From: Geobacteraceae bacterium | GTDB lineage: Bacteria > Desulfobacterota > Desulfuromonadia > Geobacterales > Geobacteraceae | NCBI GenBank assembly: GCA_024281055.1 | Contig: JAMXLF010000024.1 | Location: 1-64,000 of the forward strand | Direction: 5' to 3' | DNA length: 64,000 nt | Shown here: piece after piece, positions 16,240 to 32,268 of the stretch | Numbering within the stretch: position 1 is the stretch's first letter | How the letters are laid out: every line of letters begins with the position of its first letter | The notes under the pieces: model-generated | Databases searched by the model: none | What the model saw: the letters and a program-made list of their open reading frames with translations, nothing else | Told to the model about the DNA's origin: nothing | Made by a program: the position numbers and the translations under genes

Positions 16240-16634
16240 CGATGCGTCAACTCCTCATGGGAGGCGGAAGAGGTTTTCCGGCTCAACCGGCGGTTCCGGT
16301 AAAGCCTATCTTTTAATTATGCATAAATGGCGCGAAATTTCAAGGAGTAAGCGGACCGGGGGGGTGCCGTAAGGGGTAGCGGGCTGTCCCGGTTTCCGGG
16401 GTGGTGGGGGCAGTGCGGAATATTACAGTTTTCATACAAGTTTGAACCTAATTTCATAAAACATATAACATTAAAATATTTATTGAAGATAATAATAAAC
16501 AGTGTTACGTTAATTCACTAATATCCTGAACTAATAGGAGAAATCGAGAGGCTCAGTCCCAATCTCAATGGGACGCAATGCTGAATTGTGAATTTTTTTA
16601 TTTGTGTTCACTATTTAAATTGCAGGAGGGATTC
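16240..16634. promoter_or_regulatory. Intergenic region between gspA and the giant exoprotein gene
   Basis: It holds no convincing gene. It changes from GC-rich near gspA to strongly AT-rich at about 16420-16550, where promoters for the plus-strand gene are likely. At 16556-16574 lies a small hairpin (GTCCCA/TGGGAC, seven-base loop) followed by GCAATGC. An excellent ribosome site, AGGAGGG, stands seven bases before the GTG at 16635. Confidence 0.5.
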
Positions 16635-19600
16635 GTGAAAGGAAAACGCACGCTACATAACCGCATCTCCGGTTTGCTGCTGTGGCCGCTGCTCGTTCTG
16701 GCCTGGCTCCTCTGGCTGCCGTCTGCGAACGCACTGCCCGGGGCGAAGCATTTCGAGGTGACCGGCGGGCCGGCCAGCATAACTGCCGGCGTTCCCTTCG
16801 ACCTGACGGTCACGGCGAAGAACGGCGACAGCACCACCGACACCGGCTACACCGGCACGGTCTACTTCAGCAGCACCGCCGCGGTGGCGACGCTGCCGGC
16901 CCCCTACACCTTCGTTGCCGGCGACAATGGCACGAAGACCTTCTCCGTCACCCTGGGGACCGCCGGGAGCCAGACGGTTTCAGTGAGTGACGATAGCAAC
17001 CCCGGCATTGCCGGTTGGTGGAAGCTGGACGAGGGGACAGGCACTGCCACCGCGGATTCATCCGGTCTCGGTCAGACCGGCACCATTACCGGTGCTGCCT
17101 GGAGCGCCACGGTACCGGACCCGCTGGTTGCCATGGCCGACCCCGCCTCGCTATCCTTCAGCGGGACGAACAACATGGTCGATATCCCCACGAGTGCCAC
17201 CCTCCAGACCGCCACCACATTCACCGCTGCCACCTGGATCAAGGCGTCAACGGATGTGAGCGCCTTCCGCGTCTTCCTCTCCGCTGAGGACGCTACCCAC
17301 GGATACTCTGTGTACCTCCTTCCGAGCACAGGGCTGCTTCAAGTGCAATTGCATACTGATAGTGGCGGGCCTTATCCTGTAGCTTTAGACAGTGGGCCGT
17401 TGAACGACAGCCAGTGGCACCACGTGGCGGTGGTTATCGACAACACCGCTAAGACCGGAACGTTGTATGTGGACGGGGTACAGCGGGGTAACGGGTCGTT
17501 CCCCGGCAACTTTATGCCCTTTGCCGGCAATCTCAAAGTCGGTCAATTTGCCAACGTCGGAGCCTATCCCTTCCTCGGCAACATCGACGACCTGCGGATC
17601 TACAACCGGGCCCTGAGTGCCGCCGAGATCGCAGCCCTGGCGGCAGGGAGCCAGGGAGTGGGCCTTTTAAGCACGAGCGCCGGCATCACGGTAAACGCGG
17701 GTCCGCCGGCCGTGATCACGCCCCAGGCGGGTACCCCCCAGGGGGCGCAGCCGAGCGCCACCTTCGCCACCCCCCTCCAGGCAAAGGTGACCGACCTCGG
17801 CGGAAACCCTATAGCGTCGATTGCGGTGACCTTCACCGCACCGGCTACCGGCGCCAGCGGGACCTTTGCCGGCGGCCTTGCCACCGCAAGCGTCGCCACC
17901 GGCGCCGATGGCATTGCCACCGCGCCGGCCTTTACCGCCAACGGCTTGTTCGGCAGCTATACCGTGACCGCGGCCGGAGACGGAATCGCTGCCCCGGCGC
18001 TCTTTAGCCTGACCAACTACCTGGCGCCGGCGATCACGGTCCAACCACAGCCTACCACCTGCATCGCCGGCCAAGTGCCGGTTATCTCGGTGACGGTGGG
18101 GGCCAACGGGACCCCGCCCATCAGCTACCAGTGGTACCAGGGTGCGAGCGGCGATACCAGCAGCCCGGTGGCGGGGGCGGTTTCGGCCAGCTTCGACAAG
18201 CCGTTGACCGTCACCACCAGTCTCTGGGTCCAGGTCACCAAATACGCGACGGTCCTTAACAGCGATGCGGCCCTCGTAACGGTGGTACAGCCGCCGGCCA
18301 TCACGGTACAGCCGCAGCATGCCCTGCTCCAGAACAGCCAGAGCACGACCCTCACGGTGACCGCCACCGGCGACGGCACGCTCTCCTACCAGTGGTACAT
18401 GGGGACAAGCGGCGACACCTCCGCCCCGATAGCCGGTGCGACCGCCGCCAGCTACAATACCCCGCCATTTACGACCCCGGGTTACTACTGGGTACGGGTC
18501 AGCAGCGAATACGGCCATGCCGACAGCAACGCCGCAAGGATTGCCGGCACCGCTTACGGGCCGTTCGACTACATCCCGAACTTTGCCGGCTCTTCTGTAT
18601 CCATAATCGAACCGGCCTCCAACCTTGCCGTAGCCACCATACCTACTCCCCCATATCCAGCCGGAGTGGCGGCGAGCCCGGACCGGAGCCGAATCTACAT
18701 CTCTCATGGCCTCTCTAGTCAGGTGACTGTCATCAACGCCGCCGACAACGCCATCGTCGCAACCGTCACGCTGGCAGGCGCCAGAGATGCGCGAGGGATA
18801 GGGATCTCCCCTGACGGCAGCCGGCTCTATGTGGCCAATATGGGCAGCAACAATGTCTCGGTCATCGACACTGTCATTAATGCAGTCATTGCAACGATCC
18901 CCGTCGGTGTAATTCCCTTTGGAATAGCCATTCATCCTGACGGTAGTCATGTATATGTCACCAATACAGGCACAACAACAGTCTCGGTCATCGACACCGC
19001 CTCGTACACGGTCAGCGCCACCATCGCCGTCGGTACTCAGCCCATTGGCTTGGCGATGCTTTCTGACGGCAGCCGCCTCTACGTGACCAATGTGGGCAGC
19101 AACACCGTCTCGGTGGTGGACACCGCATCGAACACGGTCAGCGCCACGGTGGCAACGGGGGCGGGGCCTGTCGGTGCGACCCTGAATCCCGACGGTACCC
19201 GTCTTTACGTCACCAACAACGTTGCCAACAGTGTGACGGTTGTCGACACCGCCGACAACTCCGTGACCGCCACCGTCACCGGTTCGTTGTCCGCTCCTTT
19301 CGGGGGGGCGGTCTCGCCGGACGGCAGCAGGCTCTATGTGGCCAATTACGGCGGTAACACAGTTACGGTCATCGATACCGCAACGAACACGGTCACTCCC
19401 CCGGCGATTGCCGTCGAGGGGGAGCCGGTTTCCGTCGGCCGGAACATCCCCTGGGACACCTCCCCCGATCCGATCAGTTTCGCCCCGCGCGGCGGGGTTA
19501 CCCCCGGGGCGACCATCACCGCCACGCCGGTGACGGTCACCGGCATCGACGTGCCGACCTATATCGGCGTTACCGGCGGCGAGTATGCGGTGAACGGCGG

Positions 19601-22600
19601 CTCCTTCACCACTAATCCCGGCTTGGTCCGGAGCGGCGATGCGGTTACGGTTCGTCTCGCTGCACCAGCCGCCTACAACAGCGGCGCCACCGCGACCCTG
19701 ACCGTTGGCGCGCGCTCGGCCGTCTTCACCGTCACCACCATGCCCGAGCCGGGCGGCGTCTCAACCGCCGGGGTCACCCTTTCCGCCGGCGGCCTGGTGT
19801 TCAGCGACCGGCCTGTCGCCACCACCAGCCCCCAGCAGAGCGTCATCCTCACCAACAGAGGAGCGGCCTCCCTCGTCATCGGCACCATCGCACTCACCGG
19901 CGCCAACCCCGGCGACTTTGCCCTGGGTGGGGGGAGCTGCGCCAATGGCATGACCATCGCCGTCGGCGGGAGCTGCACAATCGGCACCACCTTCACCCCC
20001 ACCGACCAGGGAGGGCGTAACGCCGCCATCAGCATCACATCCTCGGCCCCCGGCTCACCCAACACCGTTACCCTGTACGGGGGCGGGCTCACCATCCTGT
20101 CCGACACGTCATTCGCCAACGCAAGCGCCATCACGATCAACGATTACGCTGCGGCCAGCCCTTATCCATCCACCATTACGGTTTCGGGCTTCAGCGGCAC
20201 CGTCGGCAAGGTCCGGGTGACCCTGACGGGGGTGAGCCACACCTTCCCGGCCGATATCGGCGTCCTCCTGGTGGGGCCCCAGGGGCAGAGCGTGGTCCTG
20301 ATGAATTCGGCGGGTAGTGGCACTGGTATCACGAACGCCAACCTTACCTTCGACGACGCTGCGGCCGGGTCGCTCACGTCCGGCGCGATCGCCAGCGGCA
20401 CCTACAAACCGACCGATCTGGACACCGGCCGGGTGTTCCTGGCGCCCGCCCCCGCCCGCCCCTATGGCGCCAACCTGGCCGGCTTCGCCGGCACCGACCC
20501 CAACGGCGACTGGAAGCTTTACGTTCAAGGTTTCTTTAGCGGTGATGCGGGAAGCATCAGCGACGGCTGGCAGCTGAGCATTTCGCCGCTACCCCTCGAC
20601 ACCTCCCCCGACCCGTTCGCATTCGCGCCGAAGAGCACCGCCACGCCGGCCACACCGGTCGAATCCGACCCGGCGACCATCGCCGGCATCAATACGGCCG
20701 CCTCCGTCGCCATCGCCGGCGGGGAATATGCCGTGTCGACCGATGGGAGCACCTGGGGCGCCTGGGGGAGCGCACCCGGGACCATCAATACCGGGAACCA
20801 GGTGAAGGTGCGGGTAACTTCCGGGGGCACCCCGGGGGCTGTCACTTCCGCGGCGCTCACCATCGGCGGCTACAGCACCACCTTCTCCGTCACCGTAGCC
20901 GACAACATTCCTCCGGTGGTTGACAGTTTCGCCATGCCGGCCACCTCCGGGACACTCATCGTGCCGGTCACCGCCTTCACCGCCCACGACAACGTGGCGG
21001 TCACCGGGTGGATGATCACCGCCGACAGTGGCGTGGCCCCTGCTGCGGGCGATCCCGGCTGGCGCACTATCCGTCCCCCCGACTTCACCTTCGCCGGCGA
21101 CGGCCTCCACACCGCCCGAGCCTGGGTGAAGGACGGGGCAGGTAACGTCTCCACGGCTGCCACCTGCACGGTCACCGTCACCACCACGCCGGTTATCGCG
21201 CTCTCGGCGCTCCATGACGGCGCCACCACCACCAAGCCGATTGCGAACCTCACCGGTTTGGCCACCGACCCGAACGGCATCGCCACCTTCACTGTCACCA
21301 TTAACGGCGGCACGCCGTTTGCCGTGCCGGCAGCCGGCTTCAACACCGCCCTGCGCTTGGCTGCCGGTGCCAACACCATCACCCTGGCCGCTACGGACAC
21401 TAACGGCCATGACACCACCGTCACCCGACACGTCACCTACGACTTGGCGGCTCCGGCCTTGGCCGTGCTCTCCCCTCCCGACGGCAGTGCCGTCAACCTC
21501 ACCAATCATCCGAGCCTCGTGGTCGAAGGGACCTATGACCCGGCAGCGGCAACTGCGGTCCAAGTGACGGTGAACGGCGGCGCTCCCACGGATGCGTTCA
21601 CAGCTGGTGGCGGCTTCATGCTTCCGGTCACCCTCGTCGAAGGAATGAATACCATCGAAGTTACCGCCGTTGGCGCAATCGCCGGCAGCAGCGTTAAGCG
21701 GACCGTGTTCGCCAGCTACGATTCTCTCACCCTCGCGGTCGCCGACCCGGCGGAGGACAGTCTAGTCGCCCCGACCGGCTACCTGCTGGGCGGGAGCGTC
21801 TCCGACGCCACCGCGCCGATCACCATCACCCTTGTCGCTGACGGCGTTACCTATCATCCCGGCGTCACCGCCGGCTCGTTCGAGCAACAGCTTCCGCTGC
21901 CGACCGAGAAGAGCTATCCCATCACCATCATCGCCGTCGATGCCTGGGGGAGGAGCGCCACCGTCACCCGGACCATCATCCGGGAACGGCTGGACCAGAC
22001 TATCACCTTTGCCCTCGCTTCGCCGGTTACCTACGGCAATTCCCCTATCGCCCTGAGCGCCACCAGCTCCTGCGGCCTGCCGGTCACCTTCGGCAGCTCC
22101 AATACGGCGGTCGCATCAGTCAGTGGCTCCACTCTCACCATCGTCGGGGCCGGCAGTGCAACCATCACCGCCGTCAATCAGGACGGGAGCACTCTCTGCA
22201 AGCCGGCGTCATTGCCACAGCAGCTCCAGGTCGACAAGGCGTCCCTCTCCGTTACCGCCGACAGCAAGACCCGCGCCCTTGGTGCGGCCAATCCGGTCTT
22301 TACCGCTACCTACAGTGGGTTTGTCAACGGTCAAACCACGGCAGCGCTTGGTGGTGCGGCGACATTTTCCACGACCGCCACCGTCTCAAGTCCCGCCGGC
22401 ACCTACCCGATCACGGTCAGCCAGGGAACCCTCATCTCTGCCAATTACACCTTCACCTTTGTGGGCGGCACCCTCACCATCGGTTCACAGTACGGCCTAG
22501 ATCTCACCATTGCCGGCACCGGTGACGGTACTGTCCTCTACACTGAAAAGGGGATTGCGTGCAACAGTGGCTGCAGTATCATGATCAATCCCGGTGCCCA

Positions 22601-23009
22601 GGTCATACTTGAGCCGAACCCTGATGAATACTCGCTGTTTGCCGGCTGGAGCGGCGTCTGTACCAATACCAGCGGGAACTGCAGTTTCACCATGAACGGG
22701 AGCAAGACGGCCACAGCCACCTTCAACTTTGACAGCGCCCACGCGGTGCGGGTCGACGGGCCACCGGTCGCCAACTACTCTACAATCCTTGGGGCATACG
22801 CCAATGCGGCGACCCTGAACAACGCCATCATAAAGATATGGGGGGTAAATTTCACCGAGAACTTTGTGTTCGACCAGGGCAAGGCGGTGACCCTCAGCGG
22901 AGGCTACGACGGGGCCTACACCTACAACACCGGCAACACCACAACTCTCCAGGGGCCGGTGACTCTCAAGACCGGCACCATAATCATGGACAATCTGACC
23001 ATCAGGTAA
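16635..23009 (+). CDS. Giant secreted multidomain beta protein with seven-bladed YVTN propeller
   Basis: The 2124-residue protein has a signal peptide (residues 1-36, ending LPSANALPG). In order I see: a beta-sandwich; a LamG/concanavalin-like domain (about 125-335); a Big_1-like domain (356-462); two Ig-like modules with SYQWY (466-635); seven YVTN repeats (PDGSRLYVAN, then VSVIDTA) at about 643-926; two copies of a DTSPDP-FAP module; a HYDIN/ASH-like domain; a proprotein-convertase P-domain (about 1155-1318); several Ig-like domains; an MBG-like domain; an InlB-like repeat; and a short beta-helix-like C-terminus. GTG 16635 is chosen for its AGGAGGG. There is no membrane anchor, LPXTG or autotransporter domain. 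It is likely an extracellular adhesin or matrix protein, ligand unknown. Confidence 0.85.
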   Translation: MKGKRTLHNRISGLLLWPLLVLAWLLWLPSANALPGAKHFEVTGGPASITAGVPFDLTVTAKNGDSTTDTGYTGTVYFSSTAAVATLPAPYTFVAGDNGTKTFSVTLGTAGSQTVSVSDDSNPGIAGWWKLDEGTGTATADSSGLGQTGTITGAAWSATVPDPLVAMADPASLSFSGTNNMVDIPTSATLQTATTFTAATWIKASTDVSAFRVFLSAEDATHGYSVYLLPSTGLLQVQLHTDSGGPYPVALDSGPLNDSQWHHVAVVIDNTAKTGTLYVDGVQRGNGSFPGNFMPFAGNLKVGQFANVGAYPFLGNIDDLRIYNRALSAAEIAALAAGSQGVGLLSTSAGITVNAGPPAVITPQAGTPQGAQPSATFATPLQAKVTDLGGNPIASIAVTFTAPATGASGTFAGGLATASVATGADGIATAPAFTANGLFGSYTVTAAGDGIAAPALFSLTNYLAPAITVQPQPTTCIAGQVPVISVTVGANGTPPISYQWYQGASGDTSSPVAGAVSASFDKPLTVTTSLWVQVTKYATVLNSDAALVTVVQPPAITVQPQHALLQNSQSTTLTVTATGDGTLSYQWYMGTSGDTSAPIAGATAASYNTPPFTTPGYYWVRVSSEYGHADSNAARIAGTAYGPFDYIPNFAGSSVSIIEPASNLAVATIPTPPYPAGVAASPDRSRIYISHGLSSQVTVINAADNAIVATVTLAGARDARGIGISPDGSRLYVANMGSNNVSVIDTVINAVIATIPVGVIPFGIAIHPDGSHVYVTNTGTTTVSVIDTASYTVSATIAVGTQPIGLAMLSDGSRLYVTNVGSNTVSVVDTASNTVSATVATGAGPVGATLNPDGTRLYVTNNVANSVTVVDTADNSVTATVTGSLSAPFGGAVSPDGSRLYVANYGGNTVTVIDTATNTVTPPAIAVEGEPVSVGRNIPWDTSPDPISFAPRGGVTPGATITATPVTVTGIDVPTYIGVTGGEYAVNGGSFTTNPGLVRSGDAVTVRLAAPAAYNSGATATLTVGARSAVFTVTTMPEPGGVSTAGVTLSAGGLVFSDRPVATTSPQQSVILTNRGAASLVIGTIALTGANPGDFALGGGSCANGMTIAVGGSCTIGTTFTPTDQGGRNAAISITSSAPGSPNTVTLYGGGLTILSDTSFANASAITINDYAAASPYPSTITVSGFSGTVGKVRVTLTGVSHTFPADIGVLLVGPQGQSVVLMNSAGSGTGITNANLTFDDAAAGSLTSGAIASGTYKPTDLDTGRVFLAPAPARPYGANLAGFAGTDPNGDWKLYVQGFFSGDAGSISDGWQLSISPLPLDTSPDPFAFAPKSTATPATPVESDPATIAGINTAASVAIAGGEYAVSTDGSTWGAWGSAPGTINTGNQVKVRVTSGGTPGAVTSAALTIGGYSTTFSVTVADNIPPVVDSFAMPATSGTLIVPVTAFTAHDNVAVTGWMITADSGVAPAAGDPGWRTIRPPDFTFAGDGLHTARAWVKDGAGNVSTAATCTVTVTTTPVIALSALHDGATTTKPIANLTGLATDPNGIATFTVTINGGTPFAVPAAGFNTALRLAAGANTITLAATDTNGHDTTVTRHVTYDLAAPALAVLSPPDGSAVNLTNHPSLVVEGTYDPAAATAVQVTVNGGAPTDAFTAGGGFMLPVTLVEGMNTIEVTAVGAIAGSSVKRTVFASYDSLTLAVADPAEDSLVAPTGYLLGGSVSDATAPITITLVADGVTYHPGVTAGSFEQQLPLPTEKSYPITIIAVDAWGRSATVTRTIIRERLDQTITFALASPVTYGNSPIALSATSSCGLPVTFGSSNTAVASVSGSTLTIVGAGSATITAVNQDGSTLCKPASLPQQLQVDKASLSVTADSKTRALGAANPVFTATYSGFVNGQTTAALGGAATFSTTATVSSPAGTYPITVSQGTLISANYTFTFVGGTLTIGSQYGLDLTIAGTGDGTVLYTEKGIACNSGCSIMINPGAQVILEPNPDEYSLFAGWSGVCTNTSGNCSFTMNGSKTATATFNFDSAHAVRVDGPPVANYSTILGAYANAATLNNAIIKIWGVNFTENFVFDQGKAVTLSGGYDGAYTYNTGNTTTLQGPVTLKTGTIIMDNLTIR

Positions 23010-23242: not shown

Positions 23243-25561
23243 TTAATGGGATACTGCCGCTATGGCGGTGATCTGCGCAGCTGTCAGGCCAAGGGAGCCC
23301 ATTCCCCCGTAGTTCGCGTTGATTGCTGCAGTGATCTGAGCGGCGGTCCTGACGCCGAGCGTACCGTGGCAACCGAGGCAGACGGTGTTGTAGTACGTCA
23401 ATGCGTCAAAGGCTGGCGCTGACGTGGTCGTCGAAGCCTGGGGCGAAGCAGTGCTTTCACCTGCGCTGTTGACGGCCGTTACGAGGTAATAGTAGGTGGT
23501 GCTGGCCGCCAGCCCGGTCTGGACGTAGGGACTGGTGACTCCGGCGATCTTCGTGCCGGTGGCTGTCGTGAGCCCGCTCGTGGTGGAGTAGTAGATGTTG
23601 TATGAGGTTGCGCCGGGAACCGCCGGCCATGAGATGGTCACCTGATTGGCGCCGCCGGTGGCGGTAACGCCGGTGGGGGCTGCCGGGACGACCGGCACCG
23701 GAGCGGTGGTGGCGGCGGTGACCTGGACCGAAGCGGGGCTTTCGCCGGAGGCATTTACCGCCGTAACGATGTAGTAGTAGGCAGTGCCGGCGGTGAGACC
23801 GGTCTGGACGTACGGGCTGCTGGCTCCGGCGATCTTGGTGCCGGTCGCTGTGGTAACCCCTGAAGTCGTAGCCCAGTAAATATTGTACGAGGTCGCGCCG
23901 GAAACTGCCGTCCATGAGACGGTCACCTGGTTGGCGCCGCCGGTGGCGGTAACGCCGGTCGGGGCGGCAGGGACCGCCGGGGGGGGAGCGTTGGTGGCGG
24001 CAGAGGCCTGGGCCGAAGCGGCGCTCTCGCCGACGCTGTTTACCGCCGTGACGATGTAGTAGTAGGTCGTCCCGGCGGAAAGGCCGGTTTGGACATAGGG
24101 GCTCGTTACCCCGGCGATTTTCTTGCCGGTGGCGGTCGTGACGCCGGAGGTCGTCGACCAGTACACGTTATACGAGGTTGCCCCGGAAACTGCCGGCCAG
24201 GAGATGGTCACCTGGTTGGCGCCGCCGGAAGCGGTCACGCCCATCGGAACCGCGGGTACGGTCGGGGCCGGGGCGGGGGTGAGGGTGGTCGCTGCGACCT
24301 GGACCGAGGGAGCGCTTTCGCCGGCGCTGTTCACCGCGGTGACGACATAATAGTACGTGGTGCTGTCGTTGAGGCTTCCCTGGACAGCGGGACTGGTGGC
24401 GCCGGCAATCTTGGTTCCGGTTTTTGGGGTGACGCCGGAAGTGGATGACCAGTAAATGTTATACGAGGTGGCGCCGGAAACCGCCGACCAGGAGATGGTC
24501 ACCTGCTTGGTGCCGCCGGTGGCCATTACACCCATCGGAGCGGCGGGTACGGTCGGAGCGGGGGGGGCGGCAGTGGTGGTTGCCGAAACCTGGGACGAGG
24601 CGGCGCTTTCGCCACCGCTGTTCACGGCAGTGACAATGTAGTAGTACGTTGCACCTGCGGCAAGCCCGGTCTGGACATAGGGGCTCGTGACATTGGCAAG
24701 CTTTGTCCCGCTGGTGGTCGTGACGCCCGAGGTCGTTCCATAGTAGATGTTGTACGAAGTTGCATTGCTGACGGCGCTCCAGGAGATGGTCACCTGGCCC
24801 GCGCCGCCGAGGGCGGTCACGCCGGCCGGGGCTGTAGGAGCGCTGGGAGCCGGGGGCAGGCAGTCGGAGTTGAAGCTGCCGCTGGCGATGTCGGTGACCT
24901 GGCCGCTATAAATGACGGCTCCGGTTTGCGCATTGGTGATCGTTAGGGTGCCGCCGACGAGGGTTATTTTCACCTGGTCGAACATCTCGTCGAGGCCGAG
25001 GTGATTGGCCATGTACTGCGATGTGATCGGATTGGTGTTTTGTGCATTGTATTGCTGGAGAAGCGGTTGCAACTTGGCCAGCATGGTGGCGAGAACGGTC
25101 TGGAGATTTTCGCCGATCTTCTGGAGGGTGGCTGCATCAGGATGGTCATAGACCTGTGCCGGGTCATTGACGCCGGCAGCACTGGCGACGATCACGTTCG
25201 ACAGGGGATTGATGTTGGCGGTACCGGTCCCGCCCGCATAGGAGGTAAGCGTATACGTTGTTCCTCCAACGTTCCCCGTGGCCTCGATAATATAGGGGGC
25301 CTTCATGCCGGTGACATCGATGGCATATGAGCCGTCACTGCCGATAACGGCCGTCTTCACCTGGGGGGTAGTTGAAGAGTCCTTGAGGTTGACCTGACCC
25401 GACATGGTGGCGCCAACAGAGGCAACGCCGCTCACGACCTGGGACGAAATGCCCACCGGGGTGGACCCTCCGCCGCCGCAGCCGGCTAGCATGAGACCAA
25501 TGGTCACCAGGCAACCTACGGTGATGGTGGCAATTGTGCGTTTCATCCTGATCCCGTTCAT
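23243..25561 (-). CDS. Lipoprotein with five fibronectin-III repeats and a C-terminal c-type heme site
   Basis: The 772-residue protein has a lipoprotein signal (lipobox LAGC followed by GGGG). An N-terminal beta domain (about 40-130) follows, then a helical stretch, then five FN3 repeats of about 95 residues marked by QVTISW-AVSGATSYNIYW. The C-terminus of about 50 residues has one heme motif, CLGCH, followed by a helix like that of class I monoheme cytochromes. It is probably an outer-membrane, surface-facing protein that could carry or relay electrons. ATG 25561 is chosen because AAAGGAGATTTG stands directly before it. The gene is controlled by a cGAMP-type riboswitch at 25678-25789, which ties it to the surface-attachment signalling known in Geobacter. 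Confidence 0.88.
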   Translation of the reverse strand: MNGIRMKRTIATITVGCLVTIGLMLAGCGGGGSTPVGISSQVVSGVASVGATMSGQVNLKDSSTTPQVKTAVIGSDGSYAIDVTGMKAPYIIEATGNVGGTTYTLTSYAGGTGTANINPLSNVIVASAAGVNDPAQVYDHPDAATLQKIGENLQTVLATMLAKLQPLLQQYNAQNTNPITSQYMANHLGLDEMFDQVKITLVGGTLTITNAQTGAVIYSGQVTDIASGSFNSDCLPPAPSAPTAPAGVTALGGAGQVTISWSAVSNATSYNIYYGTTSGVTTTSGTKLANVTSPYVQTGLAAGATYYYIVTAVNSGGESAASSQVSATTTAAPPAPTVPAAPMGVMATGGTKQVTISWSAVSGATSYNIYWSSTSGVTPKTGTKIAGATSPAVQGSLNDSTTYYYVVTAVNSAGESAPSVQVAATTLTPAPAPTVPAVPMGVTASGGANQVTISWPAVSGATSYNVYWSTTSGVTTATGKKIAGVTSPYVQTGLSAGTTYYYIVTAVNSVGESAASAQASAATNAPPPAVPAAPTGVTATGGANQVTVSWTAVSGATSYNIYWATTSGVTTATGTKIAGASSPYVQTGLTAGTAYYYIVTAVNASGESPASVQVTAATTAPVPVVPAAPTGVTATGGANQVTISWPAVPGATSYNIYYSTTSGLTTATGTKIAGVTSPYVQTGLAASTTYYYLVTAVNSAGESTASPQASTTTSAPAFDALTYYNTVCLGCHGTLGVRTAAQITAAINANYGGMGSLGLTAAQITAIAAVSH

Positions 25562-25677
25562 CAAATCTCCTTTCCTTGTATGCCCGACGGGCATCTCCCG
25601 GTGCACTTCCCTGCCCGTCACGGGGGCACCGGATCTTTTCCTGTTGTCGAAGTACGGCGATGTCCGGAAACGGGCAC

Positions 25678-25789
25678 AAAAAAACCGGATGCCGAATGTT
25701 GGTTGACATTTCGGCGACCCGGCTGTCTCAGGGAGACCCTATAGGCTTTCCGTCCCACCCTCGCGGATGGTTTAGCATTGTCGTGTATC
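25678..25789 (-). promoter_or_regulatory. GEMM-Ib riboswitch (3',3'-cGAMP/cAG type) with overlapping terminator
   Basis: Read on the minus strand, 25789-25705 gives CACGACAAU, GCUAAACC, a P2 stem CCAUCC/GGGUGG closed by the GNRA loop GCGA, then GACGGAAAGCC. A P3 stem GUCUC/GAGAC follows, then AGCCGGGUCGCCGAAAU. This is almost the sequence I remember for the Geobacter cGAMP aptamer; ACAA replaces the ACAG of c-di-GMP-I aptamers, which I take as the A20 signature of cGAMP binding. The aptamer 3' strand is reused in a terminator: GCCGAA and TTCGGC pair, flanked by CCGG/CCGG, with seven U at 25684-25678. This fits a transcriptional ON switch for the FN3 heme lipoprotein. Confidence 0.9.
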
Positions 25790-25815
25790 AACTACCCTAT
25801 GTAACTTTGAAATGG

Positions 25816-25844
25816 AGTCTAATTAAAAACACGAATACTGTCAA
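25816..25844 (-). promoter_or_regulatory. Sigma-70 promoter of the riboswitch-controlled gene
   Basis: On the minus strand, TTGACA (25844-25839) and TAGACT (25821-25816) are separated by 17 bases. Transcription would begin near 25808, about 20 bases before the aptamer. Confidence 0.65.
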
Positions 25845-30821: not shown

Positions 30822-32051
30822 CTACCTGCTCAGCCGGTTCCTTCCGCCGCGCTTTGCCCGGTACAGGGCCTGGTCGGCTTCTTTCAACACTTCGGCCGGT
30901 TTGCGCCCCTCGGCACTCGGTGCAACGCCGATGCTGACGGTTACCGATACCGTTTCCCCCTCGCCCCTGCTGCCGCGCTGCTGTTTCCCCTCCTGGTTTT
31001 TCTTCGGGCGGTCGGCGCCGCGGAGCCGAAGCTGGTATGAGGCGATGGCCTTTCGCAGCTCCTCCAGATGCGGGACCGCGTCAGCCAGTTCCCGGCGTGG
31101 GAAGACGATGGTGAACTCCTCTCCCCCGTACCGAAACGCCCTGCCCCCTCCTCCCACTCCCTGGAGCTTACCCGCCACCATCTTGAGCACCTGGTCTCCC
31201 ACATCGTGACCGTAGGTATCATTGAAGCGTTTGAAGTGGTCCACATCGACCATGGCGATCGCATACTGCCGCCCCAGCCCCATGAGCAGTTCATTGAGTG
31301 CCCTTCGTGCCGGAAGAGCGGTCAAGTCATCCCGGAACGCCATATCGTAGGAGTCCCGCAGCACACTCACGGTGAGGATGAGGGCAGCGGCCGAGCTGAA
31401 GGCGAGAGGCACATTTGCAGCAAGCAGCCAGTTGCAGCTTATGGCCACCGCGATCAGGGTGCCGAGCAATCCTGCGTCTACCGGGGATTGACGACGCACT
31501 GCACGGGCCAGGGTGAGGAGTGCGCCGGTGACGACTGCCAGAGCGGCCGGCTGCGAGATCGCCAGACGGTCGAAGAAGGGAGAGCTCAGAAAATGTCGGT
31601 CCAGGAGTTCCAGCACGCCGGTTCGCTGGTTGTGGATGAACCAGGCGATAAGTGCCGCCTGGGCGGCGAAGAAGCAGAAGCGCATCCGTCCGGCGACGGT
31701 GAACGGCCCGCGTTCGCGCATGAAAGAGATGAGGGTTATGTTGAGCGGGAGGAGGCAGGAAAACGCGTGAAAGAGCAGCATGGAGCGCAGGTCGGCGAGA
31801 CCGCCCTGCAGGAAGGTCCGGCTGCTCCAGAAGAAGAGTCCGACCATGAGGAGAACGAGCAACACCCGTCCCCGGTGAAAATGAAAGCTCAGGAACATCC
31901 CCGCGGCAATGATGGTGTACGGGAGAGAGGGGACGAGCTCCTGCCAGGCAGGCGACAGCACGGGAATTCGGGCAAGGCTGAAATACGCCGCCACAAGAAG
32001 AAAGGCCGGCACAGTAAAGACGGAGACCTTTTTGAGGACGGCACTGGTCAT
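30822..32051 (-). CDS. Membrane-bound diguanylate cyclase (GGDEF domain)
   Basis: The 409-residue protein has an N-terminal sensor region with about seven transmembrane helices (1-230) and a C-terminal GGDEF domain. The signature is GGEEF (RYGGEEFTIVF). The substrate-binding motif DVDHFKRFNDTYGHDVGD keeps the Asn and final Asp that read guanine, so c-di-GMP rather than cGAMP synthesis is predicted. No RxxD inhibitory site lies five residues before GGEEF. A short insertion rich in Lys/Gln/Gly (RPKKNQEGKQQRGSRGEGE) interrupts the domain near the end. ATG 32051 follows GGGAGGAG; longer starts exist. It converges on the DUF502 gene with five bases between stops. Confidence 0.87.
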   Translation of the reverse strand: MTSAVLKKVSVFTVPAFLLVAAYFSLARIPVLSPAWQELVPSLPYTIIAAGMFLSFHFHRGRVLLVLLMVGLFFWSSRTFLQGGLADLRSMLLFHAFSCLLPLNITLISFMRERGPFTVAGRMRFCFFAAQAALIAWFIHNQRTGVLELLDRHFLSSPFFDRLAISQPAALAVVTGALLTLARAVRRQSPVDAGLLGTLIAVAISCNWLLAANVPLAFSSAAALILTVSVLRDSYDMAFRDDLTALPARRALNELLMGLGRQYAIAMVDVDHFKRFNDTYGHDVGDQVLKMVAGKLQGVGGGGRAFRYGGEEFTIVFPRRELADAVPHLEELRKAIASYQLRLRGADRPKKNQEGKQQRGSRGEGETVSVTVSIGVAPSAEGRKPAEVLKEADQALYRAKRGGRNRLSR

Positions 32052-32268
32052 GCGGGGGGATTCTCCTCCCATAATTTGGCCTGCTGCGAAGTTCAATACA
32101 CCGTTGGCACCGGGGTGTCAACTGGATTCCGCAGCGACGGGCATTACGGGAAGAATGGCGGCTTCCCGGGGATCGGCGATGATGTTTGTGCTGCCAGGTG
32201 TGGACAGCAGGCGGTTGAGTGGTAAACTTGAACAGTAACAACTCAAATGACCGGGCAGGGAGGCGCGA

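Follow-up and report, generated by a model that had tools for sequence, protein, structure and literature searches.

The 64,000-nucleotide stretch of Geobacteraceae DNA analysed here (the window) carries a riboswitch on its minus strand, at positions 25786-25710. It is probably a GEMM-I ON switch that responds to c-di-GMP, built on the Geobacter GEMM-Ib scaffold with a G at nucleotide 20 (G20) and placed upstream of a gene for a PgcA-family cytochrome. What appears to be new at this locus, judging from its sequence, is a natural swap of the ligand-selecting base on the leader of a PgcA-family gene. Along the minus strand, from 25844 to 25678, a promoter-like site is followed by the aptamer and then by a terminator, and the start codon of the downstream gene lies at 25561. 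The features of the locus are as follows.

25816-25844, minus strand: sigma-70-like promoter TTGACA-N17-TAGACT (10 of 12 consensus matches; 0.4 expected by chance, in shuffles of the region)
25710-25786, minus strand: GEMM-I aptamer, RF01051 (P1 CGAC/GUCG, P1b, P2 with a GCGA loop, P3)
25776, minus strand: ligand-selecting nucleotide 20 (Vc2 numbering), a G by alignment; A in close sibling copies
25713, minus strand: C equivalent to Vc2 C92 and pilM C75, by alignment; second C of GCCGAA
25678-25724, minus strand: intrinsic terminator, AGCCGGGTCGCCGAAATGT...ACATTCGGCATCCGG TTTTTTT, which reuses the aptamer 3′ strand (fold of about -22 kcal/mol)
25567-25573, minus strand: ribosome-binding site AAAGGAG, from the sequence
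23243-25561, minus strand: PgcA-family lipoprotein gene, from domain and structure matches

The class of the aptamer was established with Rfam covariance models. The GEMM-I model RF01051 scores 45.0 bits (E 1.5e-5) at 25786-25710, above its gathering score of 35 bits, and this is the sole Rfam match within the 64-kb window. The clan sister RF03167 reaches 53.2 bits, which falls short of its cut-off (59). At permissive Rfam thresholds, no second or remnant aptamer was detected in the window leader. The genome as a whole (4.44 Mb) contains 41 RF01051 matches, 40 of them above the cut-off. Among 27 of its GEMM copies, 12 of the 15 stem pairs show compensatory changes. The features that define GEMM-I membership are all present, namely compensatory change in P1b, P2 and P3, the invariant A47 and the C92 equivalent. 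The window aptamer resembles c-di-GMP-I (GEMM-Ia) riboswitches of RF01051 such as Vc2 in its G20, A47, C92 equivalent and fold. However, it differs from Vc2-type GEMM-Ia in its P1b (C-G/U-G) and in its core GACGGAAAGCC, both of which are as in Geobacter GEMM-Ib. The GNRA loop capping P2 is the GCGA at 25764-25761. The initial annotation had described the promoter, the GNRA-capped P2, the core, a terminator reusing the aptamer 3′ strand and an FN3-repeat monoheme lipoprotein downstream, and had proposed the covariance-model search. All of these elements are borne out by our analysis.

The same annotation named cGAMP as the ligand, on account of an ACAA placed in the ligand-selecting position. 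To locate that position, nucleotide 20 was mapped by pair spacing and A47: alignment columns 12 and 37 pair with each other (spacing 25), and A is invariant in column 38. Columns 12 and 37 were equated with G21 and C46, which we take to pair with each other in the Vc2 structure. G21, C46 and A47 are named as key residues in PMC9049102. Since columns 12-37 match the G21-C46 spacing and column 38 matches A47, column 11 corresponds to nucleotide 20. In the window this nucleotide is the G at 25776, which sits in ACAAUGCUAAACC immediately 5′ of the C25775-G pair (the G21-C46 equivalent). The ACAA lies 5′ of the ligand-contacting base and was rejected as a cGAMP cue; the selecting nucleotide is a G, not an A.

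Across the aligned copies, column 11 is only ever A or G. Of the AAT-x-CT...GGAAAGCC (GEMM-Ib) copies in its genome, the window copy alone has G. Its closest sibling aptamers there, at most 93.5% identical, are all A20, and the remaining G20 copies of this genome have different pocket sequences. In the 48 family genomes, where the genus of the window host is represented by one genome, the otherwise identical pattern occurs with A20 114 times and with G20 twice (rows counted by hand). Over the order (141 genomes), 13 non-A cases were found and all 13 are G, never C or T. An A20, which characterizes GEMM-Ib cGAMP riboswitches, is thus lacking in the window aptamer.

A change from A to G at nucleotide 20 switched the GEMM-Ib aptamer of Gmet_0970 from cGAMP to c-di-GMP selectivity (PMC6456294). 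The engineered A20G Gmet_0970 reporter of that study combines this base change with a scaffold of the type seen in the window aptamer; the window change, in contrast, is natural and lies within the leader of its own gene. Given G20 and this published switch, the predicted ligand of the window aptamer is c-di-GMP, and cGAMP is probably a misassignment. The riboswitch, its GEMM-Ib-like scaffold, the ON-type terminator and the heme-protein target of the earlier proposal are therefore retained, but its ligand is contradicted by G20.

The base at nucleotide 20 shifts selectivity by degrees and does not act as a hard filter (PMC9262584). Since, in addition, an aptamer with a natural A variant retained most of its affinity for c-di-GMP (PMC9481103), both messengers may bind. 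The omcST riboswitch of G. sulfurreducens is reported to be sensitive to both (PMC6456294). We nevertheless regard a similar dual response of the window leader, to c-di-GMP and cGAMP at cellular levels, as unlikely, since the A20G Gmet_0970 variant stayed c-di-GMP-selective when the RNA concentration was varied 100-fold (PMC6456294). It is improbable that the scaffold (P1, P2 and the U-G pair at P1b) overrides G20 and keeps the aptamer cGAMP-selective. The close similarity to the A20 siblings, the A20 leaders found before homologous genes elsewhere and the Hypr-type cyclases encoded by the genome would all fit such a reading, but in this same type of scaffold the A to G change was sufficient to switch selectivity experimentally. 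Finally, although the sequence comes from a single genome in a draft assembly (103 contigs, 3.4% contamination) and the nearest homologues are A20, a sequencing or assembly error at 25776, or a decaying aptamer whose functional state is A20, is very improbable, because the promoter, the terminator and every other conserved position are intact, and because independent genomes also show G20 in this scaffold, related ones among them sharing it (G014/G015/G023; G056/G057).

The 5′ arm of the terminator starts at 25724, inside P3, and continues through the 3′ strand of P1. Aptamer and terminator are therefore mutually exclusive. The hairpin was recovered by folding, with a 7-T run ending at 25678, and was missed by a consensus terminator scanner, because its stem is bulged. 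In most sibling copies of the genome the same arrangement of aptamer and terminator follows. In the pilM riboswitch of G. metallireducens, which is an ON switch, the terminator sequesters the ligand-pairing C (C75) (PMC9262584). By analogy with this arrangement, the window leader is most likely a transcriptional ON switch, as for pilM and pgcA. RNA polymerase would initiate at the 25844-25816 promoter and make the aptamer RNA. Upon c-di-GMP binding, G20 would read one guanine, the C92 equivalent would pair with the other and A47 would stack between them. The ligand-bound aptamer would lock P1 and P3 and hold the 5′ arm of the terminator, so that transcription proceeds into the cytochrome gene; without ligand, the 3′ strand would refold into the terminator. 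The window leader shares its scaffold, the P1/terminator overlap and a PgcA-family target with the GEMM-Ib leaders of pgcA (GSU1761, GSUR3008) and pilM/Gmet_0970, and presumably their ON logic. It differs from them in carrying G20 instead of A20, with c-di-GMP as the predicted ligand.

The product of 23243-25561 has a lipobox (LMLAGC), five FN3 domains and one CXXCH motif. Its N-domain (residues 40-232), of the cofactor-free type, matches the PDB entries 9i0d/9i0e, "Lipoprotein cytochrome c", over residues 40-231 (E 5e-46), and its heme domain matches 8qj6 and 8qjg (E about 2e-4), identified as PgcA heme-domain entries in PMC11520253. The PgcA-like homologue L133, which has PT linkers and monoheme domains, matches 9i0d as well as 8qj6/8qjg. 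The first domain of PgcA is cofactor-free (PMC11520253), and the number of hemes varies among PgcA homologues, with one in G. metallireducens (PMC5732950). The window protein shares with PgcA, a triheme extracellular lipocytochrome, the lipid anchor, the cofactor-free N-domain and a monoheme domain of the PgcA I/II type. However, five FN3 domains replace the (PT)x linkers, one heme is present instead of three, and domain III is absent. We call it a PgcA-family protein with FN3 spacers and not an orthologue of triheme PgcA. It is predicted to sit at the cell surface and to take part in extracellular electron transfer.

The pgcA gene is the best-known gene under cGAMP riboswitch control (PMC5732950), so that genes of this family were already known as targets of this riboswitch class. 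The pairing with the target had been put forward as the novel element of the locus. This claim was rejected, since a covariance model built from the copies of this genome finds GEMM aptamers before such genes in 14 genomes including this one. N-domain homologues occur in 36 of the 48 family genomes. A second PgcA-N-domain lipoprotein of the genome, without CXXCH, is preceded by a G20 GEMM-I aptamer whose P3 has a long insertion (L037, G000:C34:22915-23061). Both GEMM-controlled PgcA-N-domain genes found in the genome are thus G20. Convergent with the window lipoprotein gene is a gene on the plus strand (16578-23009) for a probably secreted protein of 2143 residues with laminin-G-like, beta-propeller, Ig-like and MBG domains.

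The nearest neighbours of the window protein in the tree are four homologues (G006, G028, G034, G037), with 59-68% identity to it in the N-domain. Their leaders have two or three aptamer copies each, all A20. In the adjacent clade (G014, G015, G023), a distal A20 aptamer is accompanied by a proximal aptamer reading AAATGCTAAACC, which is a G20 with one extra base inserted upstream. Most simply, the group would have had A20 ancestrally, and the G20 of the window would be derived.

In the 48 family genomes, G20 within the GEMM-Ib scaffold (WGCTNAACC...) is rare and occurs at seven places, the window included. Of the remaining six, five lie on the gene side of a distal A20 partner aptamer, upstream of PgcA-family genes (G014, G015, G023), a multiheme cytochrome gene (G029) and a lipoprotein gene (G040; named LysM/transpeptidase-like by eye). 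The sixth (G044) is cut off by a contig start, and the window is the only solo case. These mixed tandem loci, in five genomes, are also indexed as L172, L173, L174, L175 and L177. The A20 copy is distal and the G20 copy proximal in every mixed tandem; since G014, G015 and G023 share ancestry, this order represents about four independent cases. Two terminators, read by eye, follow the aptamers in the G014 and G023 leaders, and such an arrangement is predicted to act as an AND gate that needs both cGAMP and c-di-GMP. The gates catalogued in a published survey of tandem riboswitches include AdoCbl/c-di-GMP, AdoCbl/c-AMP-GMP and glycine/c-di-GMP (PMC9481103). A c-AMP-GMP/c-di-GMP pair is absent from that survey, though the two founding papers of 2015 may mention mixed tandems. 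We give roughly even chances to a scenario in which Geobacteraceae leaders integrate both messengers in the RNA itself: natural G20 arises repeatedly in GEMM-Ib by a single-base change, on the gene side of a distal A20 aptamer and with a separate terminator for each of the two, yielding AND gates for cGAMP and c-di-GMP on surface electron-transfer and envelope genes. The window would then be a solo, c-di-GMP-only PgcA leader, produced by loss of the A20 partner or by direct conversion.

Other arrangements were seen among the GEMM-I copies. A triple leader in the window genome (L041 4342-4911, G000:C26:76341-76910) reads A20, A20 and then G20 of another scaffold, and precedes a gene for an FN3-type secreted protein; no T-run follows its third aptamer, which may act at the level of translation. 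A degenerate copy altered at nucleotides 11-16 (L040, G000:C26:38714-38790), possibly a decaying tandem member, immediately precedes an intact A20 copy. Two G20 aptamers of GEMM-Ib scaffold stand in tandem in the genome of an uncultured member of the Desulfuromonadales (L113 1998-2218, DUZS01000001.1).

Both messengers are plausible in the cell, since the genome encodes canonical GGDEF proteins as well as two proteins with the Hypr serine. There are 26 GGDEF matches. Two with Ser at the Hypr position (L083, L089) carry GGDEF or GGDEY, and most of the others have the canonical Asp. L083 matches 6d9m, a fusion protein whose GGDEF domain carries the same Ser and which, by its description, we take to be the structure of G. 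metallireducens GacA. The construct is described in PMC6456294. About 5 kb from the riboswitch, the window encodes a GGDEF protein (30822-32096, minus strand) with RYGGEEF and an Asp at the base-reading position, which looks like a canonical diguanylate cyclase.

For the annotation of these genomes, the window aptamer is a caution that the scaffold alone is insufficient to assign cGAMP to a Geobacter GEMM-I copy. In Geobacter, growth on Fe(III) particles is favoured by cGAMP and growth on electrodes by c-di-GMP (PMC6456294). A PgcA-family leader with a swapped base, beside homologues whose leaders are A20 or A20 plus G20, suggests that one base could move a gene between these pathways. The natural pairs of A20 and G20 leaders may thus offer ready-made material on how cells separate or combine the two messengers.
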